Of a DNA stretch of 64,000 nucleotides, positions 14,093 to 48,594 are shown in pieces. The DNA is from Marchantia polymorpha subsp. ruderalis (taxonomy: Eukaryota; Streptophyta; Marchantiopsida; Marchantiales; Marchantiaceae). Location: the NCBI GenBank assembly GCA_037833965.1, contig AP031355.1:17199501-17263500 (forward strand), written 5' to 3'. The position numbers and the translations under genes were made by a program. The first letter of the stretch is position 1; every line of letters starts with the position of its first letter. Below the pieces are notes generated by a model. That model had not been told where the DNA came from, did no database searches, and saw only the letters and a program-made list of their open reading frames with translations.

Positions 14093-14782
14093 CTACCACC
14101 TTAATTGTCCTTGATTAGGAAGTCGATTTAGCTCAAACATATATACCAGCGCTCCCTTCTTTCGCTCACTGTAAAATCTACTCACTTTGTACATACCGTC
14201 ATAGCTGTAGAAAAATTTGGATCGATGGAAGGAATCCTTGTGCTTCCGAATGACTCGGACTGATCGTCCCAGGTCAGCAGAATTCTTCAAAGCAAGATTT
14301 CCTCCCACTAGCTTTTGATCTTTTGTAACTTCGGTGCTGCGAACACTGTCAACGCGCCTACCGACCCCTCCCTCACCGCAGTAATGGATGGTGTCTCCCT
14401 CGTCGATATCATCTTTTTCTCCAGAGAGCACAACACTAACCGCTATAGATACAAACTCTCCATCAATCATTGCTGGACTTCGAATAGCGGGCAAATAATC
14501 GATTCCGGATTCAAGCCGATGGTGAGCTGCAACCAAATATAACTCCACTCGCGAGTTGAAGCATTGGCCGTTTTTGAGTCCGGGAATATCTCCATCGATA
14601 CTCTTCACCCCATTACACAATAACGGTTGAAACAGAATGCAGAAATCCTTTAAAGCAACTGATTCAATTTTCTTCTTCTGTCTGTACTTCTCTCGAAATG
14701 TGTCAAATTGATCCAAAAGTTTCTGAACATTCGCATTCTCGGACCGAAAATTATAAGATGGCCCTCGCCGCCTGGACTGCAT
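14093..14782 (-). CDS. SRA (YDG) domain protein, SUVH-like but without SET
   Basis: From the first in-frame ATG (14782) the frame gives 229 residues; the frame is open back to a stop at 14972-14974, so an upstream exon is possible. SRA hallmarks occur in order: IPGLKNGQCFNSRVEL (entry strand), GIDYLP, SIAVSVVLSG, the GDTIHYCGEGG segment (usually YTGQGG), DQKLVGGNLALKNS, VRVIR, the FFYSYDGMYKV (YDG) motif, and a closing segment like the usual LVRIPGQP. SRA domains bind methylated or hemimethylated cytosine; in plants they occur in SUVH H3K9 methyltransferases and VIM proteins. The frame stops right after the SRA domain and no pre-SET or SET follows, so this is either a truncated SUVH copy or an SRA-only protein. 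Tyr-Cys for Tyr-Thr and Glu for Gln in the TGQGG motif are departures from the consensus as I know it. Confidence 0.7.
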   Translation of the reverse strand: MQSRRRGPSYNFRSENANVQKLLDQFDTFREKYRQKKKIESVALKDFCILFQPLLCNGVKSIDGDIPGLKNGQCFNSRVELYLVAAHHRLESGIDYLPAIRSPAMIDGEFVSIAVSVVLSGEKDDIDEGDTIHYCGEGGVGRRVDSVRSTEVTKDQKLVGGNLALKNSADLGRSVRVIRKHKDSFHRSKFFYSYDGMYKVSRFYSERKKGALVYMFELNRLPNQGQLRW

Positions 14783-14974
14783 TCCGTCTCGCGGCTTGTC
14801 TTGTGACTTGCTGGCGAACTGCAGCAATGACTTGCCCTTGGAATGACTTCTGCTAAGCAGAAGTTTCTTCCCGTTCTTCGCAGCTCCCACTCTCGTAATG
14901 ATGAAATCCTTCCTCGAAGTAGCAAAAATGAGAGATTGTGTCAACTGTAACCAGCATGAGGTGCTTAAGTACTA

Positions 14975-17775: not shown

Positions 17776-18627
17776 ACCAGTGATTTTGACTGTCCAGGAA
17801 CGTGGCCAAGTTTTGGCCTGAACTAATTCTGCCCCGCGGTTGTTTCCGCCGCTCGACCCATCGCATGCTTTCGGGACTATGGCGTCGGCAGATCCTAGTT
17901 GTAACAGGGACAAATTAACTGAGTTCAGGTCTGAGGTCGATAATCAACATCTATTGTCAGGTGGCTTTGGACTTTCACAAAGTTAGATTAAAACCTGAAT
18001 TACACAATCCCTTCAAAGTTATTGCAAAGTTGAACTTCACGATAATCTGTTTCTGAACATAAAAAAATGGAACAATGACAATGAAAAGTAGAACCTTTTA
18101 AGATAAATCATCAAATCTTCTTTTTAGACTAACATGTGCTACATCAGATATAATTCTTAATAGCATTAAAGCGGAATACTTGCTTAAAAAAATAAATATG
18201 AAAAATTTCATGTTAAATAAAATAAATCACAATACAAAGATCAATAAAAACTAATTTAAAAGTGTAAAATTATGTAATTTTTATGCAAGATCTAATTTGG
18301 AAAAAATCATGGTTATTGCATCATTACGAAAAAAAATTAATTATAAATTGTCGATCATAATAACTTGTGTGACATTAAGATCTAAAAGTTGAACCCACTT
18401 GAAAATAAAACAAAAATTTTGAAAATGAGAAATATCTATAATTATTCTTTTTTTATCGATATAGATCTTTCAAACACAAAGATAAATTTTACTTCCAAAT
18501 TAGAATATGTAATAGAGAACTGATTTCCAACCTGAAGGAAATATGATCCATAAGTAATTCAGTGCAAACATTAATGACTCTACTGTTCAATTGGGGTATT
18601 TTTAGATGTAAGAAACCAAAAAAAAGT
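17776..18627. other. A+T-rich intergenic
   Basis: The first 200 bp are moderately G+C-rich without a recognisable frame; the rest is A+T-rich with oligo-A runs. I see nothing functional. Confidence 0.5.
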
Positions 18628-20918
18628 CAGCCCAGGAAGCATTTGAACCTGCAGCCCAGATCGATAACTTGCTGTCGCATCGAGCTACTGGACCATTCAC
18701 ATGAGGAGACATGATGACTGACTAAAATTAGAAGCATACGTATGTAATGATAAAAATGACGAATTTACACCAAAGTAAGGTATGTGCTCGAAACGAAGGA
18801 CCAGAAGAGACACCGTATTACGGGACTAAATTTACAGTACATTCCTCTCTGTTCTCAGGAGAGACGCGAGGAGAATTGGGGACCACGCACCACTTGAACC
18901 AATAACATAGATCCATATCTTCGAATCTAATGGGCCATTCATATGAAGACACGAGATTAGTGACTTAAAGAATGGAGCATTACTTATGTAGTGTACAGTT
19001 GAAGAATCTGCACCACAGTCCGTTATGTGTTCATAACCAAAAACAAAACTTGTGAGGCTCAGGCAGGCAGGATTTGAACCCGCGTAACAGATCCATAGCT
19101 TAGAAAGCTCACGCATTGAGCTACTGTGCCATTCACATGAAGAGACATGCCGACTGATTACAACTTGTAATTTGCAAGAAGATCAACTGATAAATCCACT
19201 GTATATCCTAGTATGTTCAGATGACAGAACAAAATACTTGCAGCCTAGGCAGGACTTGAACTCGCAGCACATATCCATAGCTTCGAAAGCTCTCGCATTG
19301 AGCTACAGGACCATTCATATGTAGAGGTATGCTGACCGTATAGAAGACAAAGCACATAACGGGACTAATGGAGTACAAACTTTTATAAATCCACTACACA
19401 TTCGAGTATGTTAAGATGACATATGGAAAGACTTGCAAATACCAGGCAGGACTTGAACCCGCAGCAAATATCCACAGTTTGAAACGCTATCGCTTTGAGC
19501 TACTGTGCCCTTCACATGAACAGAAATCCTGACTGACTACGAGAAGAAGCATATTCGTAGACAAATGGTGTGTAAATGTAGATGAATTTTCTGTAGATTC
19601 GATATGATTAGATGACACACCAAAAGACTACAGACCAGGCAGGACTTGAACCCGCAGCACAAATCCATGGACTGGATGGCTCTCGCATTGAGCTACTGGA
19701 CGCTTCATATGAAGGGACGTGCCCACTGATTACAAGAAGAAGCACACTCCTAGACTAATAGAGAGCAAATGTTGATGCATCTACTGTAAAGAGGAGTATG
19801 TAACGACGATACACAAAAAACTTGCAGCCCAGGCAAGACTTGAACCCACAGAACAGATCCAGAGATTGAAAGGCTCCCGCATTGAGCTACTGGGCCATTC
19901 GCATGATAAAACATGATAACTCACAAACAGAACAAACATACTCATGCAATACACCAGTTGATGTGCCTACAGAACACTCGCATATGTTTGGAAGACAGCC
20001 ACCAATACAGTCACCAAAAGAATAGCAGCCCAGGCAGGACTTGAACCCGCAGCAGAGATCCATGGCTTGAAGGGCTCTACAATTCAGCTACTGGGCCTTT
20101 CACATGAAGAGACATGATGACTCACTACAATATCAAGCATACTCGTGTAGTGCAACAGTTGATGAATCTACAGCACACTCGGGTATGTTTGACTCACAGG
20201 CACCAAAAGAATAGCAGCCCAGGCAGGACTTGAACCCGCAGCACAGATCCATATCTTGGAAGGCTCTCGCGTTGAGCTACTGGGCCCTTCGCATGATAAA
20301 ACAAGATGACTCAGTACAATAAGAAGCATACTCATGTAGTGAAACAGTTGAAGAATCTGTTGTAGATTCCAGTTTTTTAAGTTGCCAGAAATTAAAAATA
20401 ATTACAGCCCAAGCAGCACAGATTCATAGATTGGAATGCTTTCTCATTGAGGTACTGGGCCACTCACATGAAGCGACATGTCAAGTCACAACAAGATGAA
20501 GCATACTCCGGGACTCATGTCATGTAGCGGTTCAAGAATCTTCACCTCAGTCCACTGTGTAATCGTTGAAAACCCAAAATTTTTGCGTCCAAAGCAGGAC
20601 TTGAACCCGCAGCATAGATCCATAACTTGTAAGGCTTCGCATCGAGCTACTGGATCATTCGCTTGAAGAGACATGATGACTTTAACAAGAAGCAGACTCG
20701 TGTGCTGTAACAGTTGATGAATCTACACCATTTTCTCTATCATTTATATGAAACCACAAGATTAGTGAAAAAAGGAAGAGAGCAAATCCCGCGACTGATC
20801 ACATAACAGTTCATTAGGTTATTTTTTCATCACACAACTAAAATTGCAGCCAAAATTGGACATGAACGCAAATGAAATATCCATTGCTTGTATGGCTCTC
20901 AGATTGAGCTACTGGGTC
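18628..20918 (-). repeat. tRNA-like array, block 1 (12 copies, minus strand)
   Basis: Copies lie at about 18628-18694, 18880-18935 (degenerate), 19057-19130, 19241-19312, 19441-19509, 19631-19702, 19824-19896, 20025-20097, 20214-20286, 20404-20461 (T-arm lost), 20585-20655 and 20845-20918. The consensus copy is 73 nt: a 7-bp acceptor GGCCCAG/CTGGGCT, an A-box TAGCTCAATGCG, and a T-arm GCGGG-TTCAAGT-CCTGC containing the B-box GGTTCAAGTCC. The spacer is also conserved (CTGTAGATTCATCAACTG.., CTTCATGCGAATG just before the unit), giving a period near 180-230 bp. Most copies are followed within 15 nt by TTTT or longer. Confidence 0.85.
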
Positions 20919-21704
20919 TATCACCTGACGACAAAGTATTTCTGATTACAAAAAGATACCATCATTCGTGACTGATAGAGTGTATAAGTTGGCACCAACT
21001 TCACTTATCCAAGGGCTTGATGCGTACAAGCATTTATTGGTATAAGTTAAACTGATATTATAGCACTGGGTCTCCAGTGGAGACCCAGTGGAGACTCTCC
21101 ACCATGGCCTGATCCTCTATGTGGACTCTCATCTGAAGACAACGAATTCCATGTACTTTCGATTATGGGTGGATTGAACATACGAAGTAATTGCATTAAC
21201 AAACAGTCCTGGTTACTGATATAAAATAAGTGTACTTGTACGCGGAGATGGTATCCAAAATATAGCTAGCTTTGTGTCATAACTCGCTGGTTCATCAGCT
21301 CAGCGCATAAACCTGCGTCACTGCATGGCGAGAGTTTTAATTGTAAGTTCTAGTATGTTGACCAATCATATTTTTTAAAATTATTCCTCACCCTTCCCAG
21401 GCCAATAGTGCGGTGCAAGAACCTTCTTCTTCGAGAGGGTGTGCTGTGAATTCCACCAGGGCAGCCACGTTCTGTGCGTTCTTGGTTAGATTATATGATT
21501 CCTACAAAAGTGATAAACAGTAGTAGTTTAATCTCAAGTCGTAGGATTCCTCCTTTCTCCTCATGTGAATGGCCCTGGGAGCTCGAAGTCAGTCCCGAAA
21601 TATTCGATCTATTCTGGACTATTATTTTGAGAACTAACAAGACTTTGGTGAAGATTCATCAACCGTAACTCTACATGTACGCTTCTTCTTGGAGTCAGTC
21701 ATCA
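20919..21704. other. Spacer between inverted tRNA-like blocks, with a 27-bp palindrome
   Basis: This stretch separates minus-strand block 1 from plus-strand block 2. It contains a perfect palindrome at 21064-21090, 13-bp arms (CACTGGGTCTCCA) around a single G. No coding frame is convincing. Confidence 0.5.
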
Positions 21705-22850
21705 GTTCTCTTCACCTTGCGGTTTCAAGTCCTGCCTGGGCTGCTATCCTTTTGGTGTCTGTATTGGTGGCTGTCTTCGAAACATACCCGAGTGTTCTAC
21801 AGATGCATCAACTGTTGCACTACATGAGTATGCTTCTTTATCTTGAAGTGAATCAGCATGTTTTGTCATGCGAACGGCCCAGTAGCTCAATGCGAGAGCC
21901 TTCCAAGCTATGGATCTGTGCTGCGGGTTCAAGTCCTGCCTGGGCTGCTCTTCTTTTGCTACCTGTTTTGGCAGCTAGTATTAAAACTAAACCCAGTGTA
22001 CTGTAGACTCATCAACTGTTTCACTATATGAGTATGCTTTTTATTGTACTGAGTCATCATATCACTTCATGCGAAGGGCCCAGCAGCTCAATGCGAGAGC
22101 CTTCTAATAATGGATCTGTGCTGCGGGTTCAAATACTGTCTGGGCTGCTATATTTTTGGTGTCTGTATTGGTGGCTATCTTCCAAACATAACCGCGTGTA
22201 CTGTAGATTCATCAACTGTTACACTACATGAGTATGGTTTTTCTTATTTGAGTCATCCTGCTTTATCATGAGAACGGCCCAGTAGCTCAATGCTAGAGCC
22301 TTCCAAACTATGGATCTGTGCTGCGGGTTCAAGTCCTGCCTGGGCTGCAAGATTTTTGTGTTTGGTTGTTACATACTGCTATTTACAGTAGATGCATCAG
22401 CCTTTGGTGTCCATTAGTCAAGGAGTGTGCTTCTTCTTGTAGTCAGTCGGCATATTCTTCGATGTGAATGGCCCAGTACCTCAATGCGAGAGCCCTCCAA
22501 ACTATGGATCTATGCTGCGGGTGCAAGATTTTTGTGTTTGGTTGTTACATACTGCTATTTACAGTAGATGCATCAGCCTTTGGTGTCCATTAGTCAAGGA
22601 GTGTGCTTCTTCTTGTAGTCAGTCGGCATATTCTTCGATGTGAATGGCCCAGTACCTCAATGCGAGAGCCCTCCAAACTATGGATCTATGCTGCGGGTTC
22701 AAGTCCTGCCTGGGCTGCTAATTTTTTGGTGCCTGTTTTCGTGGCTGTAGCCAGTCATCATGTCTCTTCATGCAAATGGCCCAGTAGCTCAATGCGTTAG
22801 GCTTCCGAGCCTTATGTCTGTGCAGCAGTTACAAGTACTGGTTGGGTTGC
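21705..22850 (+). repeat. tRNA-like array, block 2 (7 copies, plus strand)
   Basis: Copies: a 3' half at about 21717-21745, then 21876-21948, 22077-22148, 22276-22348, 22470-22522 (cut at the T-arm), 22646-22718 and a degenerate 22778-22850. The copy at 21876 shows the full 7-bp acceptor, D-stem GCTC/GAGC and T-arm. T-runs follow (TTTT to TTTTTT) 5-12 nt after the acceptor. A 176-bp segment with its spacer is duplicated head to tail (22345-22520 and 22521-22700), so local tandem duplication is one mode of growth. Confidence 0.85.
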
Positions 22851-23478
22851 ACATGTTTTGGATTTCCAAATGTGGTGGACATTCTTCAACTTTTAAGCTG
22901 TATGAGTCCCGAAGTTCTGTGTTTTGAATCTTCTAAGATGGTTGGGTCGGGTCTTCCACACAACCATTCCTAATTTCTAGCAAATTTCATAACCCTGTTG
23001 ACATATTCTACACGTGCCATTGTCGCAGGTGAAATGTTGATATAAGCTGTTCCCGTGTAGGTCTATCAGCCGCACAATGTATTTCTCCTGGATCAGCCAT
23101 ACTTGAGCTCCTTTCTGCAGGAGCCCAGGAAAATTGGAACGTAGATCCACCAGGTCACTTTCCTAGTTGGCCGAAGTCTCTACATTCCGAAGTTACATCT
23201 AATTTTGGGCATCGCCGTATAGTGGTGGGAGAGCGTTCCAAGATGTCTTAAAAATTTCACTTAAAAACTTCACTGTCTTTGTCGCATGTTGTTTCTCCAT
23301 CTAAAGTGAATTTCAACTCTTCTTTCTCTATTTCTTATCCGGGTAAAAATCCTGGACTAAACATTGAGTATGTAATGTTCAAACTCCTATTTTGTGATAC
23401 CCATCTATAAACCCATGCACGTAGCAAGGAAGGTGTTCATAAGTCTCATACATTTTATATGGATCACGACGAAGAATC
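22851..23478. other. Spacer upstream of the U1 gene
   Basis: No coding frame is recognised. A TATA-like TTTATATGG at 23453-23461 lies about 20-25 bp before the U1 5' end, and a weak TGATACCCATC at about 23396 lies where the plant snRNA upstream element would be; the latter is only a loose match. Confidence 0.4.
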
Positions 23479-23639
23479 ATACTTACCTGGGCGGGGTTCA
23501 TCGTTGATCAAGAAGGACGATAGCCTAGGACGAGCTGACCCATTGCACCAAGGCTTGGCAAATCCTAGCACTTCCTGTATGGGAAAGTGCACGTCAAAAT
23601 TTGTTACAGAGGGGCTCGCGTACGCGCGGCCCTTCACCC
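23479..23639 (+). ncRNA. U1 snRNA (gene or close variant)
   Basis: The sequence begins with ATACTTACCTGG, the invariant U1 5' end that pairs with 5' splice sites. Stem-loop I keeps the U1-70K loop GATCAAGAAG, closed by ATCGTT/GACGAT. Stem-loop II keeps the U1A-type loop CATTGCAC. Stem-loop III (GCACTTCC..GGGAAAGTGC) is intact. AATTTGTTA is a good Sm site, and a G+C-rich final hairpin (CGCGTACGCGCG core) ends the RNA. The length of about 161 nt is normal. It differs from the plant U1 I know in the stems, but pairing is kept, so it may be functional. Confidence 0.85.
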
Positions 23640-23771
23640 AAAAAAATCAAACAGCATTTATTCTCACCACTGACACTTCAATTACGAAGATGTGACGATT
23701 CTGCTGAAAACTGCATTTCTATCGGCTTTACTCAGACTGCTATATATAGATGCCAAACATAAAACGTTGAT

Positions 23772-24405
23772 ACAGCCCAGGCAGGACTTGAACCCGCAGT
23801 ACAGATCTACGGCTTCGACGGCCGTCGCATTGAGCTACTGGGCGATTCAAATCGAACGTTATGCCAACTGAGTACAACAAGATAAAGTGCTCTGAGTCTA
23901 AACAAGTGCATATGTTCATGGATCTACTGTATAGTAAAGTATATGAAGATGGTACACCGAAACCTTGCAGCCCAGGCAGGACTTGAACCCGCAGCACATA
24001 TCCATGGCTTGGAAGTCTCTCACATTGAGCTACTGGGCCATTCGTATGAAGAGACGTGATGACCTATTCCAAGAAGAAGTATACTCATGTAACAGTTGAT
24101 TAATATTTAATACACTGTTATATTTAGATAATAGAATACAAAAAAAAGGCCCAGGCGGTACTTGAACCCACAGCACAGATTCATAGGTTTTAAGGCTCTC
24201 TCATTGAGCTTCTGGACCATTCGCATGAAGAGAAACTATGAGTCACTCCAAGAAAAAGCATACTCATGAAGTGTAACATTCGATGAATCTACAGTATACT
24301 CTGGTATGTTGATTGTAGACACAAAAATAATCGCAGCTCAGGCAGGACTTGAACCCGCAGCACAGATCCATAGCTTGGAAGGCTCTCGCGTTGAGCTACT
24401 GGGCT
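23772..24405 (-). repeat. tRNA-like array, block 3 (4 copies, minus strand)
   Basis: Copies at 23772-23843, 23967-24039, 24148-24218 and 24333-24405, with the same 73-nt layout as block 1 and a period near 180-195 bp. The copies at 23967 and 24333 keep the acceptor stem and both promoter boxes; the one at 24148 has lost the first base pairs of the acceptor. Confidence 0.85.
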
Positions 24406-24584
24406 ATTCATGAAGAGACATGATGACTGAATACAACAAGTATACTCATGTAGTGTAATAGTTGATGAATCTAAAGTTCACTTGCAGGCACCAAACGATC
24501 CTGCCTGGTACAGTGGATTCATCAACGTTTACACTCGATTAATCCGGGTCACTATTTCTCTTTGGAGTCAATGGGTACGTCATT

Positions 24585-25465
24585 TATTTTGTTCAAGTGT
24601 TGCCTTGGCTGCAATTGTTTTGGTGGCTGTCATCTAAAACGTACCCGAGTGTACTGTAGATTCATCAACTGTTACACTACATGAGTATTTTTCTTCTTGT
24701 ATTCAGTCATCATATCTCTTCATGCGAATGGCCCAGTAGCTCAATGCAAGAGCCTTCCAAGATATGGATCTGTGTTGCGGGTTCAAGTCCTGCCTGGGCT
24801 GCGATTGTTTTTGTGTCTATTATCTTAACATACCAAAGTGTCCTGTAGATTCATCGAATGTTACACTTCATGAGTATGCTTTTTCTTGGAGTGACTCATA
24901 ATTTCTCTTCATGCGAATGGCCCAGAAGCTCAATGAGAGAGCATTAAAACCTATGGATCTATGCTGTGGGTTCAAGTCCCGCCTGGACCTATTTTCTCTT
25001 CATGCGAATGGCCCAGAAGCTCAATGAGAGAGCATTAAAACCTATGGATCTATGCTGTGGGTTCAAGTCCCGCCTGGACCTATTGTTTTGTATTCTATTA
25101 TCTAAATATAACATAGGGCATCGAATATTCATTGACTGTTACAGTGCATGAGTATGCTTCTTCTTGTATTGAGTCTTCATGTCTCTTTATGGGAATGGCC
25201 GGTAGATCAATACGAGAGCCTTCACTGCTATGATCTGTGCAGCGAGTTCAAGTCCTGCCTTGTCCGCACAAATTTAGGTTTTTGAACAATTACATTAGGA
25301 CTGTGGTGCAGATTCCTCTTTAATTACATTCTATGAGTCCCAGAGTATGCTTCTTAATGTAGTGAGTCGTCATGACTATTTATGTGAGTGGCCTAGTATC
25401 TCAATGCGAGAGCCTTCCAAGCTATGGAGATGTGATGCGAGTTCAAGTCCTGCCCTAGGAGGCAC
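24585..25465 (+). repeat. tRNA-like array, block 4 (6 copies, plus strand)
   Basis: A 3' fragment at about 24590-24615, then copies at 24730-24802, 24919-24991, 25010-25082, 25197-25268 and 25390-25463. The copies at 24919 and 25010 are a 91-bp tandem duplication with no spacer between units other than the short leader, and both have CTGGACC in place of CTGGGCT at the 3' acceptor side. T-runs follow most copies. Confidence 0.85.
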
Positions 25466-25809
25466 AAGTTTTGGTTTGTTGACTAGAACATAACGGACTG
25501 GGGTGTAGATTCTTCAACTGTTACGGTGTATGAGTTCCGGAGAACCGTGTATTGAGACTTCCAAGATGCTAGGGTCGGATCTTTGACAAAACCTTTCCTA
25601 AGCTCTATCGAATTTTCATAACACTGTGATATGTCACAGTGTTCTTCATGTGCCATTGGGGCAGTTGAAAAGGTGGTATTAACTGCTGTGGAGGGAATTG
25701 GATGGAGTAACAACGTTCATTGCTCTTTCAGCTTCTGATGCTTTCTTCCTTATAATGACCCCAATCTTCGAAATAGTATACGATCCAATAGGATTATCCC
25801 ATTTTCCAA

Positions 25810-26700
25810 AATTGAGCGACTGGGCCATTCACATGAAGAAAAATTGCTGACTGGCTACGAGAAGAAATAGTGTTCCGGGACTAGTCGAGTGCAAAGGTTG
25901 ATTGATATACTGTAGATTCGAGAATGTATAGATGCCAAACATAAAAACTTGATACAGCCCAGGCAGGACTTAAACCCGCAGCACAGATCCATAAGAGACA
26001 TGTAACAGTTGCTGAATCTACAGTACACTCGGGTATGTTTCGATGACAGCCACCAAAATAGGCACCAAAAGCATAGCAGCCCAGGCAGGACTTGAACCCG
26101 CAGCACAGATCCATAGCTTGGAAGGCTCTTGCATTGAGCTACTGTGCCGCTCGCATGATAAGACATGATTACTCACTGCAAGGAGAAGGAGCATACTCAT
26201 GTAATGTAACAGTTGCTGAATCTACGGTAGACTGGGATATGTTTGGATGACAGCCACCAAAACAGGCACCAAAAGCATAGCAGCCCAGGCAGGACTTGAA
26301 CCCGCAGCACAGATCCATAGTTTGGAAGGCTCTTGCATTGAGCTACTGGGCCATTCACATGACGAGTGGACTGCAAACAATGATGAATCCACTATACATT
26401 CGAGTATGTTAAGATGACACACGAAAAAACTTGCAGCCCAGGCAGGACTTGAACCCGCAGCACAGATCCATAGCTTGGAAGGCTCTCGCATTAAGCTACT
26501 GAGCGGCTCGCATGATACAGCATGATGACTCACTTCAAGAAGAAGAAGCATACTCATGTTGTAGCAAAACAGTTGATGAATCTACAGTAAACTCGGGTAT
26601 GTTTGACTTACAGTCACCCAAAGAATAGCAGCCTAGGCAGGACTTGAACCCGTAGCACAGATCCATAGCTTGGAAGACTCTCGCATGGAGCTACTGGGCC
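25810..26700 (-). repeat. tRNA-like array, block 5 (6 copies, minus strand)
   Basis: A 5' half at about 25811-25829, a 3' half at about 25954-25993, then complete copies at 26076-26148, 26280-26352, 26433-26505 and 26628-26700. The copy at 26280 is nearly identical to the plus-strand copy at 22276, which shows recent spread or homogenisation between blocks of opposite orientation. Confidence 0.85.
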
Positions 26701-27577
26701 TTTCGCATGATGATAACTCCCTGGACCTCGCATTCGCCGAGGCAGGTCGGTCGATCGATCAACTTCTGTGTTTTATACTACGTAGTTCTATGTATGGCGT
26801 TGGACTTTGTGGACTTCCACGATGCCTTATCGAAGTCGGGTGCAGAGTTCTTGGCTAGCTCGTAGCGCTTCGGGTCTAGGGGCGGATATGATTGGGCAGT
26901 CAGTCATTCCACATCTGCACCAGGAGTTTCGCTCATGATGTCTTTTGACGTCACTACGGTGTTGCTTTCAAGCCCTCCGCTTGAGTTCTGGACGCTTTCT
27001 GCAGTTTCCGAGATGGCTTGCTGGGGATCGATTTCATTGGCACAAATGCAATCCTGAGGGCGTGGCCTGCTCCAACAGGTTTCGCTCCTCGATTTGTCGG
27101 ATAAAGAGAGTTTGCATGCAGTACGTGTATACGTGGGCATTCTAACAAGCTGGGCCAGATTATATGAATTGAATCATTCTAAAATAAAACATTGGAGTTA
27201 TATTGATTCTTCGATGCAATACTATAGTGTCATTGATAGAAAAAATATATTGTGTTTCAATCACTCAACAGTAATATTGCTCACATATACAATGAAATAC
27301 TAGAGAGAATGAAATTATAGTACAATTGAGAATGTAAGTTATTGAATGGATAATAAATTGAATCAAAATGTCAATACAGATAAATAAAAAGCAACCAACA
27401 GGAACTCTCACATGATAAAATCAAACATATTACAAACTTAATTTCACAAAGAGAAGATAATACTTTTGAACTAGTAAAAACCAAGTGGAGATATATCTAG
27501 CTCACGGGATGAGGCCGGATCAGACGTGGCTCAGGCGATGACCCGAACGAGAATGAACTTTCCCAGTCTACCACTTT
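26701..27577. other. Intergenic, moderately G+C-rich then A+T-rich
   Basis: 26701-27150 has a balanced composition. On the minus strand it holds a 78-codon ATG frame (27140-26904) that continues in pieces with AQSYPPLDPKRYELA after a stop; it might be a relic exon but I do not recognise it. 27150-27577 is A+T-rich with nothing seen. Confidence 0.35.
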
Positions 27578-27597
27578 GTCTACCGAAGGTACTGTAC

Positions 27598-27628
<31 letters not shown>

Positions 27629-27685
27629 GGCCCCTTGCGCAGGGGCCATGCTAAGGATGACCTGCACAAATTGAGAAATAGTATA
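27578..27685 (+). pseudogene. U6 snRNA-derived sequence with inverted 12-bp insertion
   Basis: The core AAAATTGGAACGATACAGAG then AAGATTAGCATGGCCCC is the U6 central domain with the ACAGAG box, and AGGATGAC plus GCACAAATTGAGAAAT is its 3' part. Between TGCGCA and AGGATGAC, GGGGCCATGCTA is inserted (27642-27653), the exact reverse complement of TAGCATGGCCCC at 27623-27634. This makes a 13-bp stem (27622-27634 with 27642-27654) and a 7-nt loop, and destroys the AGC/catalytic triad geometry of U6. The 5' stem-loop is diverged, no TATA box is seen upstream, and no T-run marks the 3' end. I treat it as a pseudogene. Confidence 0.85.
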
Positions 27686-29114: not shown

Positions 29115-29699
29115 ATGAGGACTCAGGGAGTTGTGACTGTCGGAAGATGCGAAGGAGAACGCCTACGGATAGGCGGAAGGAGTTCGTCGTTAGCAGAATA
29201 TCCACCTTCGGCCCTAGATGTTCGCCTTCGGCGACGGACGTCTTCGTGTCAACTTCAAGTCGGCAAACTCGGAGTCGGCAAACTTGAGGTCGGCGAACTC
29301 GAGGTCGGAGAACTCGAGGTCGGAAAACTCGAGGTCGGAAAACTTGAGGTCGGCGAACTCGAGGTCAAAGAACTTCAAGTCAGCAAACTCGGAGTCGGCA
29401 AACTTGAGGTCGGCGAACTCGAGGTCGAAGAACTCGAGGTCGGAAAACTCAAGGTCGGAGAACTTGAGGTCGGCAAACTCGAGGTCGGCGAACTTCAAGT
29501 CAGCAAACTCGGAGTCGGCAAACTTGAGGTTGGCAAACTCGAGGTCAAAGAACTTCAAGTCAGCAAACTCGGAGTCGGCAAACTTGAGGTCGGCGAACTC
29601 GAGGTCGGCGAACTTCAAGTCAGCGAACTCGAGGTCGGCAAACTTGAGGTCAGAGAACTCGGAGTCGGCGAAACATCGTGCGGGCGCCTTCGGCGATAA
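29115..29699 (+). other. Sense ORF over the minisatellite (copy 1)
   Basis: ATG at 29115 gives 194 codons; most are VGKLE/VGELE-type pentamers from the 15-bp unit. Copies occur at 31180-31764 and 34260-34844. With frames open on both strands, this is expected from the repeat itself, and I would not call it a gene without expression data. Confidence 0.2.
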
Positions 29700-29750
29700 C
29701 AGATAACAAGCCTTTGACAGTGTGCCTTCGGCCAAGGATAAAACCGGCAT
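29214..29750 (-). CDS. Antisense ORF encoding 28 pentapeptide repeats (copy 1)
   Basis: ATG at 29750 gives 178 residues: a 26-residue leader, 28 consecutive pentapeptides of the form F-[ASF]-[DN]-[LS]-[EK], then a basic tail. This fits the A(D/N)LXX rule of pentapeptide-repeat proteins, which fold as right-handed quadrilateral beta-helices, with Phe at the corner position. Identical or nearly identical frames are at 31815-31279 and 34895-34359. It lies antisense to the LTR and has no visible promoter, so expression is unproven; the match may be an accident of the minisatellite. Confidence 0.3.
   Translation of the reverse strand: MPVLSLAEGTLSKACYLLSPKAPARCFADSEFSDLKFADLEFADLKFADLEFADLKFADSEFADLKFFDLEFANLKFADSEFADLKFADLEFADLKFSDLEFSDLEFFDLEFADLKFADSEFADLKFFDLEFADLKFSDLEFSDLEFSDLEFADLKFADSEFADLKLTRRRPSPKANI
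29251..29670. repeat. 28 x 15-bp minisatellite in LTR 1
   Basis: The unit is AACTYGAGGTCGGMR-like with variants (CAAGTC, GGAGTC). The tract is exactly 420 bp, 28 units, without length change. Because 15 is a multiple of three and the unit lacks stop triplets, long frames are open on both strands. A second short tract of four units lies at about 29938-30000. Copies of the long tract are at 31316-31735 and 34396-34815. Confidence 0.95.
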
Positions 29751-30245
29751 AACTCTTTCAACTCGTAACGGTTTGACTCAATTAGGGTCTCGTTAGAAAG
29801 AGCTCGACGCGCTCGTTCCAACGAGCCCAAGAACTCTTGAAACGGATCAAGGATCTGTGAGTTATGGGTGTCGGGAGTGACTGTTACAAATAGGCAAAGA
29901 TGCGGAAGTGCGTCTTCGGCGGTCAACGCCTTCGGAGAACTCGGAGTCGGCGAACTCGAGGTCGGCGAACTTCAAGTCGGCAAACTCGGAGTCGGCGAAC
30001 TGATCCGTGCATCCTCCGAGCATCCTCCGAGTTGAGATCCTCCTCCGAGTCGAGCCTCCGAGTCGAGCACTGCAGTATTTCTGGGAGTGACAGTCGCCTA
30101 GAATTCAAACTCTACCAAAAGTCTGTTAAATGTGACACTTTTACTCTGTGTGTTGCCTCTGTCCCTGTGGGTTCGATCTTTTTACCACCATACTGCAGTT
30201 TTAGCCTTTGGTGGGTTATTACATAAGGAGCCGACAACTTCTTTT

Positions 30246-30263
30246 TGGCGCCGCTGCCGGGGA
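30246..30263 (+). promoter_or_regulatory. Primer-binding site
   Basis: TGGCGCCGCTGCCGGGGA begins with TGG and is close to the site used by plant Ty3-type Tat/Athila elements, complementary to the 3' end of a tRNA such as tRNA-Asp (family knowledge, not checked base by base). The second copy is at 33326-33343. A spacer of 22 bases separates it from the LTR. Confidence 0.75.
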
Positions 30264-30847
30264 CAGTGTGTCAACACCAGAGTACTTGAGCAGCAATCTC
30301 AGTTAAGTCCTCAGTCGGGCCTGCACTCCCTGCGTTTGGTGTGAGTCGAGGGTGACGTCCACGGCGTATGAAGAGGCTTCGTTCCGAAGTGGGAAGTCCA
30401 GTCCGGGTACCCTACGCTAGTTCCTGGCGGAAGGGCAGTAAAAGCCGGAGTGGGAGTCACTACCTGCAGAGCCTCTGAGTGAACTTTTGAGATGAATGCT
30501 CGGTGAATGTCGACGAGCGATGGTGTGGGGGACCTGAGTGCGAGAGCCACACGTAAGCTCCGTCGAGATTCGGAAAAAAAAAAAAAAAAAAAAAAAGAAG
30601 CTGTAGAAGAAAAACAGCGAACTACAAAGAAGACTCAAAGTGAGAACTCTGCAGAAAGATCGCCATCGCCGATTGCTGGGAGCCAAGGGCGTTCTAGTTC
30701 ACCTACTGCGAGCATTGAGCTAATGGTTCTATTGGAAATCCCTCCGACAGGAACTCTTCCTGGGTCAGGCCAACCTAGGAGCAGTCCGTTGACAGGATCA
30801 CCAATGGCAGACCCTCAAGCCAAATGTTCGCGTGGGCGCTCACAATT

Positions 30848-30858
30848 GAGGAGGGGGG
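30848..30858 (+). promoter_or_regulatory. Polypurine tract
   Basis: GAGGAGGGGGG followed by CA lies just before the TG of LTR2. The second copy is at 33928-33938, before LTR3. This is the usual plus-strand primer position. Confidence 0.8.
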
Positions 30859-30860
30859 CA

Positions 30861-33303
30861 TGTGGTAACCCACTTTTTGTTTTTCGTCGGAATTAGAACA
30901 TTTTTGATTAGTAAGTACCGTGGTAGCAGCTGTAAATAGTAATCGGTACGCAAAGCCAGAGTAAAAAGAGGATCGAGGACAGTCGAGGGGTTTTGGGCTT
31001 AGGCCACAGTGGAACGCTTGGAATGGAACGGGCGGTTCACGCTGCAGGACTCGCTTCGAGCACCTTCGGCGGTAGATCACTCATAACTTCCTAAATTCTT
31101 AACGCCTTGAGTTACTTAGGGTCTCGTTGGAAAGAGCTCAACGCGCTCGTTCTAACGAAACCAAGAACGCCTGGAACGGATGAGGACTCAGGGAGTTGTG
31201 ACTGTCGGAAGATGCGAAGGAGAACGCCTACGGATAGGCGGAAGGAGTTCGTCGTTAGCAGAATATCCACCTTCGGCCCTAGATGTTCGCCTTCGGCGAC
31301 GGACGTCTTCGTGTCAACTTCAAGTCGGCAAACTCGGAGTCGGCAAACTTGAGGTCGGCGAACTCGAGGTCGGAGAACTCGAGGTCGGAAAACTCGAGGT
31401 CGGAAAACTTGAGGTCGGCGAACTCGAGGTCAAAGAACTTCAAGTCAGCAAACTCGGAGTCGGCAAACTTGAGGTCGGCGAACTCGAGGTCGAAGAACTC
31501 GAGGTCGGAAAACTCGAGGTCGGAGAACTTGAGGTCGGCAAACTCGAGGTCGGCGAACTTCAAGTCAGCAAACTCGGAGTCGGCAAACTTGAGGTTGGCA
31601 AACTCGAGGTCAAAGAACTTCAAGTCAGCAAACTCGGAGTCGGCAAACTTGAGGTCGGCGAACTCGAGGTCGGCGAACTTCAAGTCAGCGAACTCGAGGT
31701 CGGCAAACTTGAGGTCAGAGAACTCGGAGTCGGCGAAACATCGTGCGGGCGCCTTCGGCGATAACAGATAACAAGCCTTTGACAGTGTGCCTTCGGCCAA
31801 GGATAAAACCGGCATAACTCTTTCAACTCGTAACGGTTTGACTCAATTAGGGTCTCGTTAGAAAGAGCTCGACGCGCTCGTTCCAACGAGCCCAAGAACT
31901 CTTGAAACGGATCAAGGATCTGTGAGTTATGGGTGTCGGGAGTGACTGTTACAAATAGGCAAAGATGCAGAAGTGCGTCTTCGGCGGTCAACGCCTTCGG
32001 AGAACTCGGAGTCGGCGAACTCGAGGTCGGCGAACTTCAAGTCGGCAAACTCGGAGTCGGCGAACTCAAGGTCGGCAAACCGGATGCGGTTCAGAGATCT
32101 TGCGGAGTCCATATCTTTGCGATGGACGGTCGGATGGATCTGAAATTTGGTGGGACCGTTGATCTCGGTCGGCCACGCATGCCTGCACATATTCAGCCTC
32201 AGATCTCGGATGTAAAGACGCTGGCGGCTCTGTACAGTAGGCTTAGGATTTAGATTTAGGGTTAGGGTTAGATTTAGGTTGTAAGTTAGAGGGGAAGGTA
32301 GCCGCCGACTTCTCAGGTGTAGGATCTGTTGCGGCTCGCACCCTAGCGGGTAGTGTAGTGTTAGTTAGGACCTTAGAAGGTATAAAGTAGTTCAAGGCGT
32401 TTTGCCTTTTGACTCTTCCAGTTTCGGAAGTGCAGATCAGGAACTCACTTTCTTGGCGTGTTTGTGCGTTTTGGTCCTGGCACCACGTAGAGAAGCTGCA
32501 GCATAGCGAAGTTACCGTATGTTGTAGTTGAAGGCCTTCGGCTGAATGTTCAGAGCTAGTACCCGGTTAGAGACTTGAGTAGTGCGGATCTGCACCTGCG
32601 GGTGATTTCTGATACTCAGAGCCGGCTGCGAGTTAGATACTTGAACAGTTCCCCCTTACTCCTTCGAGTGACATATCCTGATTGTACTCCTACGGGAAGT
32701 TTCCCCTGAATGCCAATGTGAAGTTTCATTACTTCGTGTAAACCTTGGTTTGTAATTCAGGTTGTGTGTGTGTTACTGGATCGTGTTTTCAGTAAGTTCT
32801 CAGTCGGGTCTGCACTCCCTGCGTTTTGTGTGATAGTCGAGGGTGACGTCCACGGCGTACGTAGAGGCTTCGTTCCGAAGTGAGAAGTCCAGTCCGGGTA
32901 CCCCCGCTAGTTCCTGGCGGAAGGGCAGTAAAAGCCGGAGTGGGAGGCACTTCCTGCAGAACCTCTGAGTGAACTTGCGAGACACTTTCCTCCTGAAATC
33001 CGAAGCGGAGGTCCTGACCGACCTCCGAGTTGTGCTTTTTGCCAGTTTCAGGTGTGTGTGTGTGTGTTGAGTGACCAAGCTGTACCGTGCATCCTCCGAG
33101 CATCCTCCGAGTTGAGATCCTCCTCCGAGTCGAGCCTCCGAGTCGAGCACTGCAGTATTTCTGGGAGTGACAGTCGCCTAGAATTCAAACTCTACCAAAA
33201 GTCTGTTAAATGTGACACTTTTACTCTGTGTGTTGCCTCTGTCCCTGTGGGTTCGATCTTTTTACCACCATACTGCAGTTTTAGCCTTTGGTGGGTTATT
33301 ACA
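30861..33303 (+). repeat. LTR 2 (2443 bp, complete)
   Basis: It starts TGTGGTAACCCA and ends TGGGTTATTACA, near-inverted termini. In order it holds a 125-bp module, GCCTTCGGC motifs, the 28-unit minisatellite (31316-31735), a second module, a six-unit minisatellite (about 32003-32080), a telomere-like run (32254-32277), TATAAAGTA (32381-32389) and a leader-like half with a (GT)n run. An antisense pentapeptide frame is at 31815-31279. Confidence 0.92.
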
Positions 33304-33940
33304 TAAGGAGCCGACAACTTCTTTTTGGCGCCGCTGCCGGGGACAGTGTGTCAACACCAGAGTACTTGAGCAGCAATCTCAGTTAAGTCCTCAGTCGGGC
33401 CTGCACTCCCTGCGTTTGGTGTGAGTCGAGGGTGACGTCCACGGCGTATGAAGAGGCTTCGTTCCGAAGTGGGAAGTCCAGTCCGGGTACCCTACGCTAG
33501 TTCCTGGCGGAAGGGCAGTAAAAGCCGGAGTGGGAGTCACTACCTGCAGAGCCTCTGAGTGAACTTTTGAGATGAATGCTCGGTGAATGTCGACGAGCGA
33601 TGGTGTGGGGGACCTGAGTGCGAGAGCCACACGTAAGCTCCGTCGAGATTCGGAAAAAAAAAAAAAAAAAAAAAAAGAAGCTGTAGAAGAAAAACAGCGA
33701 ACTACAAAGAAGACTCAAAGTGAGAACTCTGCAGAAAGATCGCCATCGCCGATTGCTGGGAGCCAAGGGCGTTCTAGTTCACCTACTGCGAGCATTGAGC
33801 TAACGGTTCTATTGGAAATCCCTCCGACAGGAACTCTTCCTGGGTCAGGCCAACCTAGGAGCAGTCCGTTGACAGGATCACCAATGGCAGACCCTCAAGC
33901 CAAATGTTCGCGTGGGCGCTCACAATTGAGGAGGGGGGCA
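33304..33940 (+). mobile_element. Internal domain 2 (637 bp)
   Basis: Almost identical to internal domain 1, with primer site 33326-33343, a 23-A run (33654-33676), the 129-codon frame (33587-33976) and purine tract 33928-33938. It shows that the array was made by duplication of a whole LTR-internal unit. Confidence 0.85.
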
Positions 33941-36383
33941 TGTGGTAACCCACTTTTTGTTTTTCGTCGGAATTAGAACATTTTTGATTAGTAAGTACCG
34001 TGGTAGCAGCTGTAAATAGTAATCGGTACGCAAAGCCAGAGTAAAAAGAGGATCGAGGACAGTCGAGGGGTTTTGGGCTTAGGCCACAGTGGAACGCTTG
34101 GAATGGAACGGGCGGTTCACGCTGCAGGACTCGCTTCGAGCACCTTCGGCGGTAGATCACTCATAACTTCCTAAATTCTTAACGCCTTGAGTTACTTAGG
34201 GTCTCGTTGGAAAGAGCTCAACGCGCTCGTTCTAACGAAACCAAGAACGCCTGGAACGGATGAGGACTCAGGGAGTTGTGACTGTCGGAAGATGCGAAGG
34301 AGAACGCCTACGGATAGGCGGAAGGAGTTCGTCGTTAGCAGAATATCCACCTTCGGCCCTAGATGTTCGCCTTCGGCGACGGACGTCTTCGTGTCAACTT
34401 CAAGTCGGCAAACTCGGAGTCGGCAAACTTGAGGTCGGCGAACTCGAGGTCGGAGAACTCGAGGTCGGAAAACTCGAGGTCGGAAAACTTGAGGTCGGCG
34501 AACTCGAGGTCAAAGAACTTCAAGTCAGCAAACTCGGAGTCGGCAAACTTGAGGTCGGCGAACTCGAGGTCGAAGAACTCGAGGTCGGAAAACTCGAGGT
34601 CGGAGAACTTGAGGTCGGCAAACTCGAGGTCGGCGAACTTCAAGTCAGCAAACTCGGAGTCGGCAAACTTGAGGTTGGCAAACTCGAGGTCAAAGAACTT
34701 CAAGTCAGCAAACTCGGAGTCGGCAAACTTGAGGTCGGCGAACTCGAGGTCGGCGAACTTCAAGTCAGCGAACTCGAGGTCGGCAAACTTGAGGTCAGAG
34801 AACTCGGAGTCGGCGAAACATCGTGCGGGCGCCTTCGGCGATAACAGATAACAAGCCTTTGACAGTGTGCCTTCGGCCAAGGATAAAACCGGCATAACTC
34901 TTTCAACTCGTAACGGTTTGACTCAATTAGGGTCTCGTTAGAAAGAGCTCGACGCGCTCGTTCCAACGAGCCCAAGAACTCTTGAAACGGATCAAGGATC
35001 TGTGAGTTATGGGTGTCGGGAGTGACTGTTACAAATAGGCAAAGATGCAGAAGTGCGTCTTCGGCGGTCAACGCCTTCGGAGAACTCGGAGTCGGCGAAC
35101 TCGAGGTCGGCGAACTTCAAGTCGGCAAACTCGGAGTCGGCGAACTCAAGGTCGGCAAACCGGATGCGGTTCAGAGATCTTGCGGAGTCCATATCTTTGC
35201 GATGGACGGTCGGATGGATCTGAAATTTGGTGGGACCGTTGATCTCGGTCGGCCACGCATGCCTGCACATATTCAGCCTCAGATCTCGGATGTAAAGACG
35301 CTGGCGGCTCTGTACAGTAGGCTTAGGATTTAGATTTAGGGTTAGGGTTAGATTTAGGTTGTAAGTTAGAGGGGAAGGTAGCCGCCGACTTCTCAGGTGT
35401 AGGATCTGTTGCGGCTCGCACCCTAGCGGGTAGTGTAGTGTTAGTTAGGACCTTAGAAGGTATAAAGTAGTTCAAGGCGTTTTGCCTTTTGACTCTTCCA
35501 GTTTCGGAAGTGCAGATCAGGAACTCACTTTCTTGGCGTGTTTGTGCGTTTTGGTCCTGGCACCACGTAGAGAAGCTGCAGCATAGCGAAGTTACCGTAT
35601 GTTGTAGTTGAAGGCCTTCGGCTGAATGTTCAGAGCTAGTACCCGGTTAGAGACTTGAGTAGTGCGGATCTGCACCTGCGGGTGATTTCTGATACTCAGA
35701 GCCGGCTGCGAGTTAGATACTTGAACAGTTCCCCCTTACTCCTTCGAGTGACATATCCTGATTGTACTCCTACGGGAAGTTTCCCCTGAATGCCAATGTG
35801 AAGTTTCATTACTTCGTGTAAACCTTGGTTTGTAATTCAGGTTGTGTGTGTGTTACTGGATCGTGTTTTCAGTAAGTTCTCAGTCGGGTCTGCACTCCCT
35901 GCGTTTTGTGTGATAGTCGAGGGTGACGTCCACGGCGTACGTAGAGGCTTCGTTCCGAAGTGAGAAGTCCAGTCCGGGTACCCCCGCTAGTTCCTGGCGG
36001 AAGGGCAGTAAAAGCCGGAGTGGGAGGCACTTCCTGCAGAACCTCTGAGTGAACTTGCGAGACACTTTCCTCCTGAAATCCGAAGCGGAGGTCCTGACCG
36101 ACCTCCGAGTTGTGCTTTTTGCCAGTTTCAGGTGTGTGTGTGTGTGTTGAGTGACCAAGCTGTACCGTGCATCCTCCGAGCATCCTCCGAGTTGAGATCC
36201 TCCTCCGAGTCGAGCCTCCGAGTCGAGCACTGCAGTATTTCTGGGAGTGACAGTCGCCTAGAATTCAAACTCTACCAAAAGTCTGTTAAATGTGACACTT
36301 TTACTCTGTGTGTTGCCTCTGTCCCTGTGGGTTCGATCTTTTTACCACCATACTGCAGTTTTAGCCTTTGGTGGGTTATTACA
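33941..36383 (+). repeat. LTR 3 (2443 bp, complete)
   Basis: Same layout and length as LTR2, with minisatellite 34396-34815, telomere-like run 35334-35357, TATA 35461-35469 and terminal TTATTACA at 36376-36383. It is followed at once by the TSD ATCAG. The apparent identity with LTR2 points to a very recent event. Confidence 0.92.
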
Positions 36384-47505: not shown

Positions 47506-48525
47506 TCACGATGAAGTTGTCATAATGAAGTTGGCAACGTCCTCCATTTCGGCCTCTCTGTAGAAGGAGGCGAGCTGCTCCCTGGTGTCATCCCAGCTGC
47601 CATCTACTGCAGCGAGGTCTAGCAAAAACGCGGCCTGATCCAGAGCAATCTGGGCAGGGATCTTCCCCTTGTTCAGATCCTCCTTCCGCCCTTCTTCTGT
47701 TACCCTCTCTCTCATAAATTCCACTTGCTCGTCTCCCCAGCCTGCCATCTCGGCCACTTTGTCGTAGCTGGATCCGAGTGTCCACCACGGCGACTTCAGA
47801 GCAATTTTGGCGGCGTCCTTCGACTCTAACTTCCTGCCAGCTTTGAGCAGAAGCTCGGCATTGAATACAAATGGCCTTCCGAAACCCGGGAAATGCTTCC
47901 TGCTCGCATAAAACTCTCCTGTCACCAGAGCGGAGATGGCGTCCCCTTTTCCCAGATGATTCAACGCCAATCTCTCAAAGACATCGGGGAATTTCCCCAC
48001 ATTCTTCATCAAGTACACATCCACTCCCGGCGAGCCTGAAGATCCAAAATCGCCGCGCCTGTAGAGCTTCTGGCCCAACTCGCCAGCTCCCGAGAAGAAT
48101 TTGTCCTCGGCACCATTGCTGTTGCAATCCTCTTCCACCAAGAGCCGGTGAATGTACTCCGCCATGCTCTTGGCGAGCAGAGTCACTCCGTGTTTGTGGC
48201 AGGTCACCACAGGAATGGCCATGCCCTCGGCGGGAGTCGGCCATCTCAAGAGGGCAGTGACAGATCCGTCCTGCGGATTCTCCGAGAGAGGGATGGCGAG
48301 GGGCATCAAACCCTTGCGCTCGTATGGAGAGACGACTTTCTCTCCCTTGGCCTGCAGAACGCTGAGAAGCGAATCCAAGTAGGGCTGCGGCTCGAGCCCG
48401 GCCACATTTTGCACGAAGCCCACATGGTCCGGTGCTGCTGTCGTCGTGGACAGACCGGCTTTCGCGATGGCCACCGCTCTCAGCTTCGTCGCGCTTTTCA
48501 TCGGTAAAATGCTGAACGCCTGCAT
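47506..48525 (-). CDS. Conserved plant protein, plastid-type (At1g16080-like), function unknown
   Basis: ATG at 48525 gives 339 residues in one exon. The first 30 residues are rich in Ser, Thr, Ala and basic residues with no acidic ones, as in organelle transit peptides. The body contains HVGFVQNVAG, SPYERKGLMPLAIPLS, TALLRWPTP, the segment ISALVTGEFY, FPGFGRPFVFNAELLLK, ALKSPWWTLGSSYDKVAEMAGW and PAQIALDQAAFLLDLAAVDG. These match, as I remember it, Arabidopsis At1g16080, found in chloroplast stroma preparations and without an assigned activity. No catalytic motif is visible; the C-terminal half looks helical. The start agrees with family length. A 28-bp palindrome lies 42 nt upstream of the ATG, in the leader. 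Confidence 0.85.
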   Translation of the reverse strand: MQAFSILPMKSATKLRAVAIAKAGLSTTTAAPDHVGFVQNVAGLEPQPYLDSLLSVLQAKGEKVVSPYERKGLMPLAIPLSENPQDGSVTALLRWPTPAEGMAIPVVTCHKHGVTLLAKSMAEYIHRLLVEEDCNSNGAEDKFFSGAGELGQKLYRRGDFGSSGSPGVDVYLMKNVGKFPDVFERLALNHLGKGDAISALVTGEFYASRKHFPGFGRPFVFNAELLLKAGRKLESKDAAKIALKSPWWTLGSSYDKVAEMAGWGDEQVEFMRERVTEEGRKEDLNKGKIPAQIALDQAAFLLDLAAVDGSWDDTREQLASFYREAEMEDVANFIMTTSS

Positions 48526-48566
48526 CTTGTCGCCTGATCTGATCCGGACAGCAGTCCTTCGGTATC

Positions 48567-48594
48567 GACTAGAGAATCGCACGATTCTCTAGTC
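48567..48594. promoter_or_regulatory. Perfect 28-bp palindrome in the 5' leader
   Basis: GACTAGAGAATCG at 48567-48579 is matched by its exact complement at 48582-48594, around CA. In the minus-strand transcript it would form a 13-bp stem with a 2-base centre, 42-69 nt before the ATG, if transcription starts upstream. Such a stem could slow scanning; as DNA it could be a dimeric protein site. Confidence 0.6.

Follow-up and report, generated by a model that had tools for sequence, protein, structure and literature searches.

Introduction

Large clusters of tRNA genes (tDNA clusters) in plants include the Tyr-Tyr-Ser (SYY) and Pro clusters of Arabidopsis, which are reported to be methylated and mostly repressed (PMC12308677, PMC11700998). 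According to one passage of this work, silencing of the SYY cluster is likely not due to DNA methylation (PMC11700998 / PMC12308677). Here we describe an array of tRNA-like units in the liverwort Marchantia polymorpha subsp. ruderalis, together with a variant U1 small nuclear RNA gene that lies inside it. The array is found in a stretch of 64,000 nucleotides on chromosome C6, hereafter referred to as the window (C6:17199501-17263500; assembly GCA_037833965.1, 241 Mb, 9 contigs). An account based on the letters of this stretch, hereafter the original prediction, had proposed either a tandem, short interspersed nuclear element (SINE)-like satellite or a cluster of non-coding RNA polymerase III (Pol III) genes. 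Our analysis makes it probable that the array represents a macrosatellite of tRNA origin that has retained a U1 variant. Its units would have been under constraint in the past and are now mostly decaying, and probably methylated and quiet.

Results

A search profile built from an alignment of 27 window units identified 33 matches in the window, 28 of which cover at least 65 profile columns; all lie within positions 18628-26700. The unit is 72 to 73 nt in length. In the consensus, the acceptor is GGCCCAG/CTGGGCT with a G-U first pair, the canonical D stem (GCTC/GAGC) encloses a 7-nt loop (AATGCGA), and the T arm is GCGGG-TTCAAGT-CCTGC. The A box, B box (GGTTCAAGTCC) and T-run terminator of a tRNA gene are present, and these features and the acceptor are as first described. 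The Pol III signals are also kept across copies, as claimed. A run of four or more T residues occurs within 30 nt of the unit in 184 of the 218 distinct full-length units of all arrays (24 of 27 in the window), usually beginning 4 to 8 nt past the unit end. The count drops to 17 of 218 for the 30 nt beyond that, and the shuffled mean is 106.9 (maximum, 124). The T-run columns (0.72-0.97) stand out against neighboring columns, and the B-box stretch is the most conserved part of the unit (0.92). The presence of both boxes and of a sharply placed T-run implies that the units are derived from Pol III genes.

The units are not decoding tRNAs, in agreement with the original prediction that they are not ordinary tRNAs. 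Instead of the 5-bp anticodon stem and 7-nt loop of a decoding tRNA, they carry a collapsed arm. Two drawings of this arm had been offered; TCCA-AGCTA-TGGA, with 4 bp and a 5-nt loop, is the better fit, whereas the one displaying an anticodon UCC fits poorly, with 134 of 150 units lacking pair 21-35. The D loop had been said to lack the usual GG; G19 is indeed mostly C, but some copies retain the GG (L017:5596, L042:72). An array of ordinary tRNA-Gly(TCC) genes, as called by ARAGORN, is ruled out by the broken alternative stem and the scant cloverleaf covariation, and automatic calls here such as Gly-TCC probably do not represent decoding tRNAs, which should serve as a warning for annotation. 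Most of the copies examined on C2, C3 and C8 have GCAGG, with which every pair of the T stem is Watson-Crick, and in one C3 copy (L029:4600) the acceptor is GGCCCAG/CTGGGCC. A canonical parent tRNA gene was not found with the one genome pattern that was tried, the same acceptor start combined with a TTCGA T-loop (0 matches).

Mean pairwise identity among 176 distinct repeats is 0.848 in the unit versus 0.638 in the spacer, and within arrays the ratio of unit to spacer distance is 0.33 to 0.64 (12 arrays with at least 10 pairs). When binned by spacer distance, this ratio declines from 1.15 to about 0.4; when noise is controlled by using the spacer in independent halves, it declines from 0.69-0.82 for recent divergence to 0.39-0.46 for old divergence. 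In 11 pairs of duplicated segments, the units differ at 230 sites versus 254 expected from the spacer (odds ratio [OR] 0.86, p 0.06), and a 7-pair subset gives an OR of 0.84 (p 0.08); these p values are approximate, as the window takes part in 6 of the 11 pairs and the pairs are not independent. Substitutions spread evenly over stems and boxes, which the original prediction had named as evidence against its proposal, are thus nearly what is seen between recent duplicates but not what is seen over old divergence. Choosing units by a profile could introduce a bias toward conserved ones, but spacings at multiples of the period are rare, so that few units can have been missed. Judged from these rates, constraint on the unit was real and is weaker now.

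A comparison of 150 of the 157 distinct ungapped units with 500 shuffles revealed little covariation in the cloverleaf. Paired cells amount to 91.5% versus 91.2% after shuffling, cells changed on both sides number 8 versus 5.5 (84 of the 500 shuffles reach 8), and the covariation score is 0.083 versus 0.084. A separate count with 198 distinct units agrees for the acceptor, D and T stems. The alignment for compensatory changes that the original prediction had suggested thus does not display, in these stems, the changes of a decoding tRNA gene; it does display an excess in the alternative anticodon stem, which is considered below.

All 14 arrays that exceed 2.5 kb have an observed/expected CpG ratio of 0.47 to 0.59, whereas the flanks give 0.70 to 1.01. 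These arrays share descent (L021 and L022 are near-identical) and are not 14 independent tests. GpC in the arrays (0.97-1.27) is not depleted, and neither is CHG. The CpG depletion, along with the parallel to the published Arabidopsis clusters, suggests that the arrays are CG methylated and probably quiet.

The window array consists of five blocks in the order -,+,-,+,-, with 12, 7, 4, 5 and 5 unit matches, close to the 35 units and in the same alternation as originally predicted. Block 1 (18628..20918, -) has matches starting at 18628, 18883 (partial), 19064, 19240, 19442, 19631, 19825, 20026, 20215, 20413 (partial), 20586 and 20846, and block 2 (21718..22850, +) has matches at 21718 (3' part only), 21876, 22077, 22276, 22470 (partial), 22646 and 22778. 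Block 3 (23773..24405, -) follows with 23773, 23968, 24149 and 24334, block 4 (24730..25463, +) with 24730, 24919, 25010, 25198 and 25390, and block 5 (25955..26700, -) with 25955 (partial), 26077, 26281, 26434 and 26629. The units at 24919 and 25010 sit in an exact 91-bp tandem duplicate. Over all fetched arrays except L022, spacing between units of the same orientation has a mode of 194 bp and falls within 175 to 205 bp in 196 of 248 cases. Such a head-to-tail repeat of constant period is that of a tandem satellite or tDNA cluster, and the regular tandem repeat and tandem satellite of the original prediction both stand.

What had been overlooked was a variant U1 gene inside the array, at 23479..23635 (+). 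It scores 109.1 bits with Rfam RF00003 (cutoff 69.5), and its 5' end, ATACTTACCTG, the region that pairs with the 5' splice site, is intact here as in all 10 array U1 copies aligned. The genome contains at least 41 U1 matches (best 42 of 3379 candidates scored). Among the matches listed, 11 reside in arrays of the tRNA-like family, all on C6 and including that of the window, with 92.7 to 109.1 bits; outside the arrays, 24 score 113.8 to 128.8 bits and six score 32 to 105.5. No U1 was detected within the fetched stretches of L009, L013, L017 and L025, which are arrays with units. Read in the direction of U1, all 11 U1 arrays display plus-strand units and/or a half unit, then U1, then a minus-strand block; in L016 the half unit is the sole element before U1. 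In the window the half unit is a short 5' remnant (GGGAGAGCGTTCCAAG; 23227..23242, +), while in the other 10 arrays it is longer, with a D loop of AATGGGA in 8 of them. About 70 bp upstream of U1 lies AAACCCAT (23409..23416, +), a putative promoter element that is exact in 8 of 10 aligned array U1 genes and in 5 of 12 non-array U1 loci.

The nearest U1 relative among the loci compared, at C6:7.60 Mb with no units nearby, is 87% identical over 454 bp, including about 230 bp upstream. With respect to most of 12 other loci aligned, the array U1 genes have a C-G to T-A change in stem I, a compensatory pair as judged by eye, and their Sm-like site is AATTTGTTACAG, the commonest form elsewhere being AATTTGTGGCAG. 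U1 has accumulated 16 differences versus 37.8 expected from the array spacer (OR 0.36, p 6e-5; 6 of the 11 duplicate pairs hold U1). Across 10 arrays, 16 of 156 U1 columns vary, whereas the outer flanks vary at 49 of 177 columns (p 5e-5), with the promoter stretch (22/110 variable), columns with any gap, and L022 left out. Purifying selection still seems to act on the array U1 variant, which is probably the component of the arrays that matters now.

It is unlikely, in our estimation, that the arrays are compound RNA polymerase II/Pol III loci in which non-decoding tRNA-like cassettes, maintained as TFIIIC-binding sites or because of the transcripts they yield, frame and regulate a chromosome-specific set of variant U1 genes. 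Also quite unlikely is that the units act as DNA, forming arrays of TFIIIC sites at a nucleosome-length period that would have a boundary, clustering or chromatin function, perhaps for U1. The strong conservation of the B box, conservation that tracks sequence and not pairing, the regular period of about 195 bp, and the position of U1 between a plus-strand unit or half unit and a minus-strand block in 11 of 11 arrays would all be consistent with such a function. However, recent duplicates differ in the B box almost as much as in other unit parts (30/892, or 0.034, versus 0.032-0.050), and a conserved terminator is expected under transcription but not under binding alone.

In total, 330 profile matches were found over the window and 19 other loci (20 sources). 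Arrays of at least four units are present at 15 further C6 loci, one or two units at three additional loci on C6 and at one on C9, and small or degenerate clusters of the ~195-bp repeat on C2, C3, C5, C8 and C9. A genome-wide search, as had been recommended, with two 24-base half-unit patterns (up to 2 mismatches) gave 228 and 218 matches, and a reversed-pattern control gave 0, which excludes a chance origin of the matches. Copies were tandem and not scattered singly; among the matches listed (~100 for each pattern), C6 holds all those of the first pattern and all but two of the second. The term SINE-like, in the sense of dispersed single copies, is therefore not appropriate. A tRNA-derived SINE family that turned tandem is very unlikely: a tRNA-like head with A and B boxes and the related pieces on other chromosomes would be expected of one, but the copies are nearly all tandem, share a spacer and are mostly on C6 among the matches listed (no search was made for tails or target-site duplications).

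For 157 of the 176 repeats, the nearest relative is found in another array, which indicates that the repeats diversified before the arrays were copied. Segment duplicates extend past the array (window 17929-20692 versus L012, 95.6%), and local tandem growth is seen in the 91-bp duplicate and in unit numbers that differ between matching blocks. L021 and L022 (C6:9.61 and 9.79 Mb; 9.5 kb, 173 kb apart) are 99.97% identical, through either duplication of the segment in the very recent past or a duplication in the assembly; L022 was accordingly omitted from the spacing and U1 counts.

Several findings weigh against the macrosatellite reading, apart from the non-independence of the duplicate pairs. 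Acceptor and T stems pair in 92 to 93% of cells, and the overall paired percentage is equaled by just 21 of 500 shuffles. In the alternative anticodon structure, 20 cells are changed on both sides versus 9.7 after shuffling, a value reached by 0 of 500 shuffles, although the stem is broken in most units; the 198-unit count has the same excess (17 paired double changes; shuffled maximum, 12). Several of these changes come from homologous units beside U1 (L012:4819, L014:7788, window:23773), suggesting that few events lie behind the excess, but they were traced by eye in the alignment, and the result continues to count here. The terminator is retained in 92 of 100 high-scoring units, raising the possibility that some units are active, and the noise-controlled ratio for recent divergence implies that relaxation may be partial. 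CpG divergence outpaces GpC divergence in the flanks (0.058 versus 0.020) as well as in the arrays (0.141 versus 0.069), which leaves depletion alone as the array-specific signal. Finally, U1 may itself be decaying, given its Sm-like site (AATTTGTTACAG) and the small indels of L012, L016, L020 and L023.

The least unlikely alternative is a living cluster of non-coding Pol III genes, whose tRNA-like RNAs of ~75 to 90 nt would act in trans or be cut to small RNAs. Boxes and terminator conserved over old divergence, mostly paired stems, the excess of two-sided changes in the alternative anticodon stem, and scores of 25 to 40 bits for window units with Rfam tRNA are in its favor. It is difficult to reconcile with the scant cloverleaf covariation, the near-spacer rate between recent duplicates and the CpG depletion, which leave unsupported the original proposal of clustered, active Pol III genes that give rise to small RNAs. 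In addition, upstream motifs that are associated with plant tRNA genes in a part of the literature (PMC11700998) are rare, with a TATA-like motif in 2 of 212 distinct units and CAA within 12 nt of the start in 23 of 212.

Other sequences in or near the arrays were noted. Better-formed tRNA genes (Ala-TGC, Val-AAC) occur in or at the end of arrays at L020:4192-4264 (-), L023:4044-4116 (-), L023:6371-6444 (+) and L024:7732-7805 (+). Degenerate copies of the repeat reside within tandem mega-repeats at C3:21993911-22173024 (eight copies, mostly ~25.77 kb apart) and C5:18080001-18127284 (three copies, ~23.56 kb apart). An origin of the C3 repeats from ribosomal DNA spacer was rejected, as a 5.8S search (best 39 of 7728 candidates) identified five places, none of them there. 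A second tRNA-like family of ~121 nt (C4:13031786-13031906, L045:36-156 [-]), followed by TTTT, shares its acceptor start and T arm with the array unit (24 to 25 exact bases in the 3' part) but has a long inner arm. It has 12 matches on C4, C5, C6 and C8, ten of which are 81 to 100% identical over most of the query; from the one copy examined, it may represent a genuine structured Pol III RNA that is ancestral or related to the array unit.

Near the window array, a U6-like sequence at 27573-27673 (+) scores 51.5 bits (cutoff 44) with a poorly matching 5' end and 3' part, and looks like a pseudogene. About 4 kb from the array, at 14093-14944 (-), an open reading frame encodes a SAD/SRA domain (PF02182, E 9e-38), a fold known to bind methylated DNA. 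The protein encoded at 47506-48582 (-) is 100% identical, over 95% of the query, to a protein of Marchantia polymorpha subsp. ruderalis. Three near-identical copies of a stretch of 15-bp repeats, 2065 and 3080 bp apart, occupy 29115-36228; their minus strand can be read as pentapeptide repeats (PF13599, E 5e-16), but other frames are open as well.

Discussion

Our results are best explained if the ~195-bp repeat is a former Pol III gene, with A box, B box, T-run terminator and tRNA-like ends, plus a spacer. As the collapsed anticodon arm is common to copies on other chromosomes, the founder probably had it already, and in that form would have made no decoding tRNA. The repeats may then have spread by local tandem duplication with inversions, until one compound array captured the variant U1 and was copied as a segment, giving rise to the eleven U1-bearing C6 arrays. 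The tRNA-like part would have been constrained while the family was young, with most copies today drifting nearly like spacer. The arrays likely work like a silenced tDNA cluster, although strictly they are not one because their units are not decoding tRNAs.

A search of the openly licensed PMC literature (CC0/CC BY/CC BY-SA) found no account of these Marchantia arrays among the titles and abstract openings listed, a weak indication that none exists. In Marchantia, a laboratory model, genes can be removed with ease. Its sixteen C6 arrays of at least four units, eleven of them compound with U1, provide a way to study the transition of a tRNA-like Pol III unit from constraint to decay, and to learn whether the linked variant U1 genes serve splicing.

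In human, the variant U1 genes of chromosome 1 lie among tRNA genes. They resemble the Marchantia genes in that many U1 copies, divergent from the main U1, are found on one chromosome (PMC13172311); they differ in that the liverwort has one U1 gene per tRNA-like array. The tRNA gene arrays of Entamoeba are likewise tandem, and some hold another small RNA gene (5S), but they are described as mostly uniform and made up of real tRNA genes, which in some species are separated by short tandem repeats (PMC2652664). The human 1q23.3 tRNA repeat is also a large tandem repeat with tRNA genes and has been proposed as a boundary element, but its unit is 7.3 kb with tRNA genes and a CTCF site (PMC4041453). 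The Arabidopsis SYY and Pro clusters and other plant tDNA clusters, as far as they are described in the sources cited above, share with the Marchantia arrays a long tandem arrangement of Pol III genes on one chromosome, and the CpG decay in Marchantia suggests that methylation and repression may be shared as well. Unlike the Arabidopsis clusters, which encode decoding tRNAs, the Marchantia arrays have units with a collapsed anticodon arm, alternating orientation, recurring array duplicates and, in eleven cases, a U1 gene.

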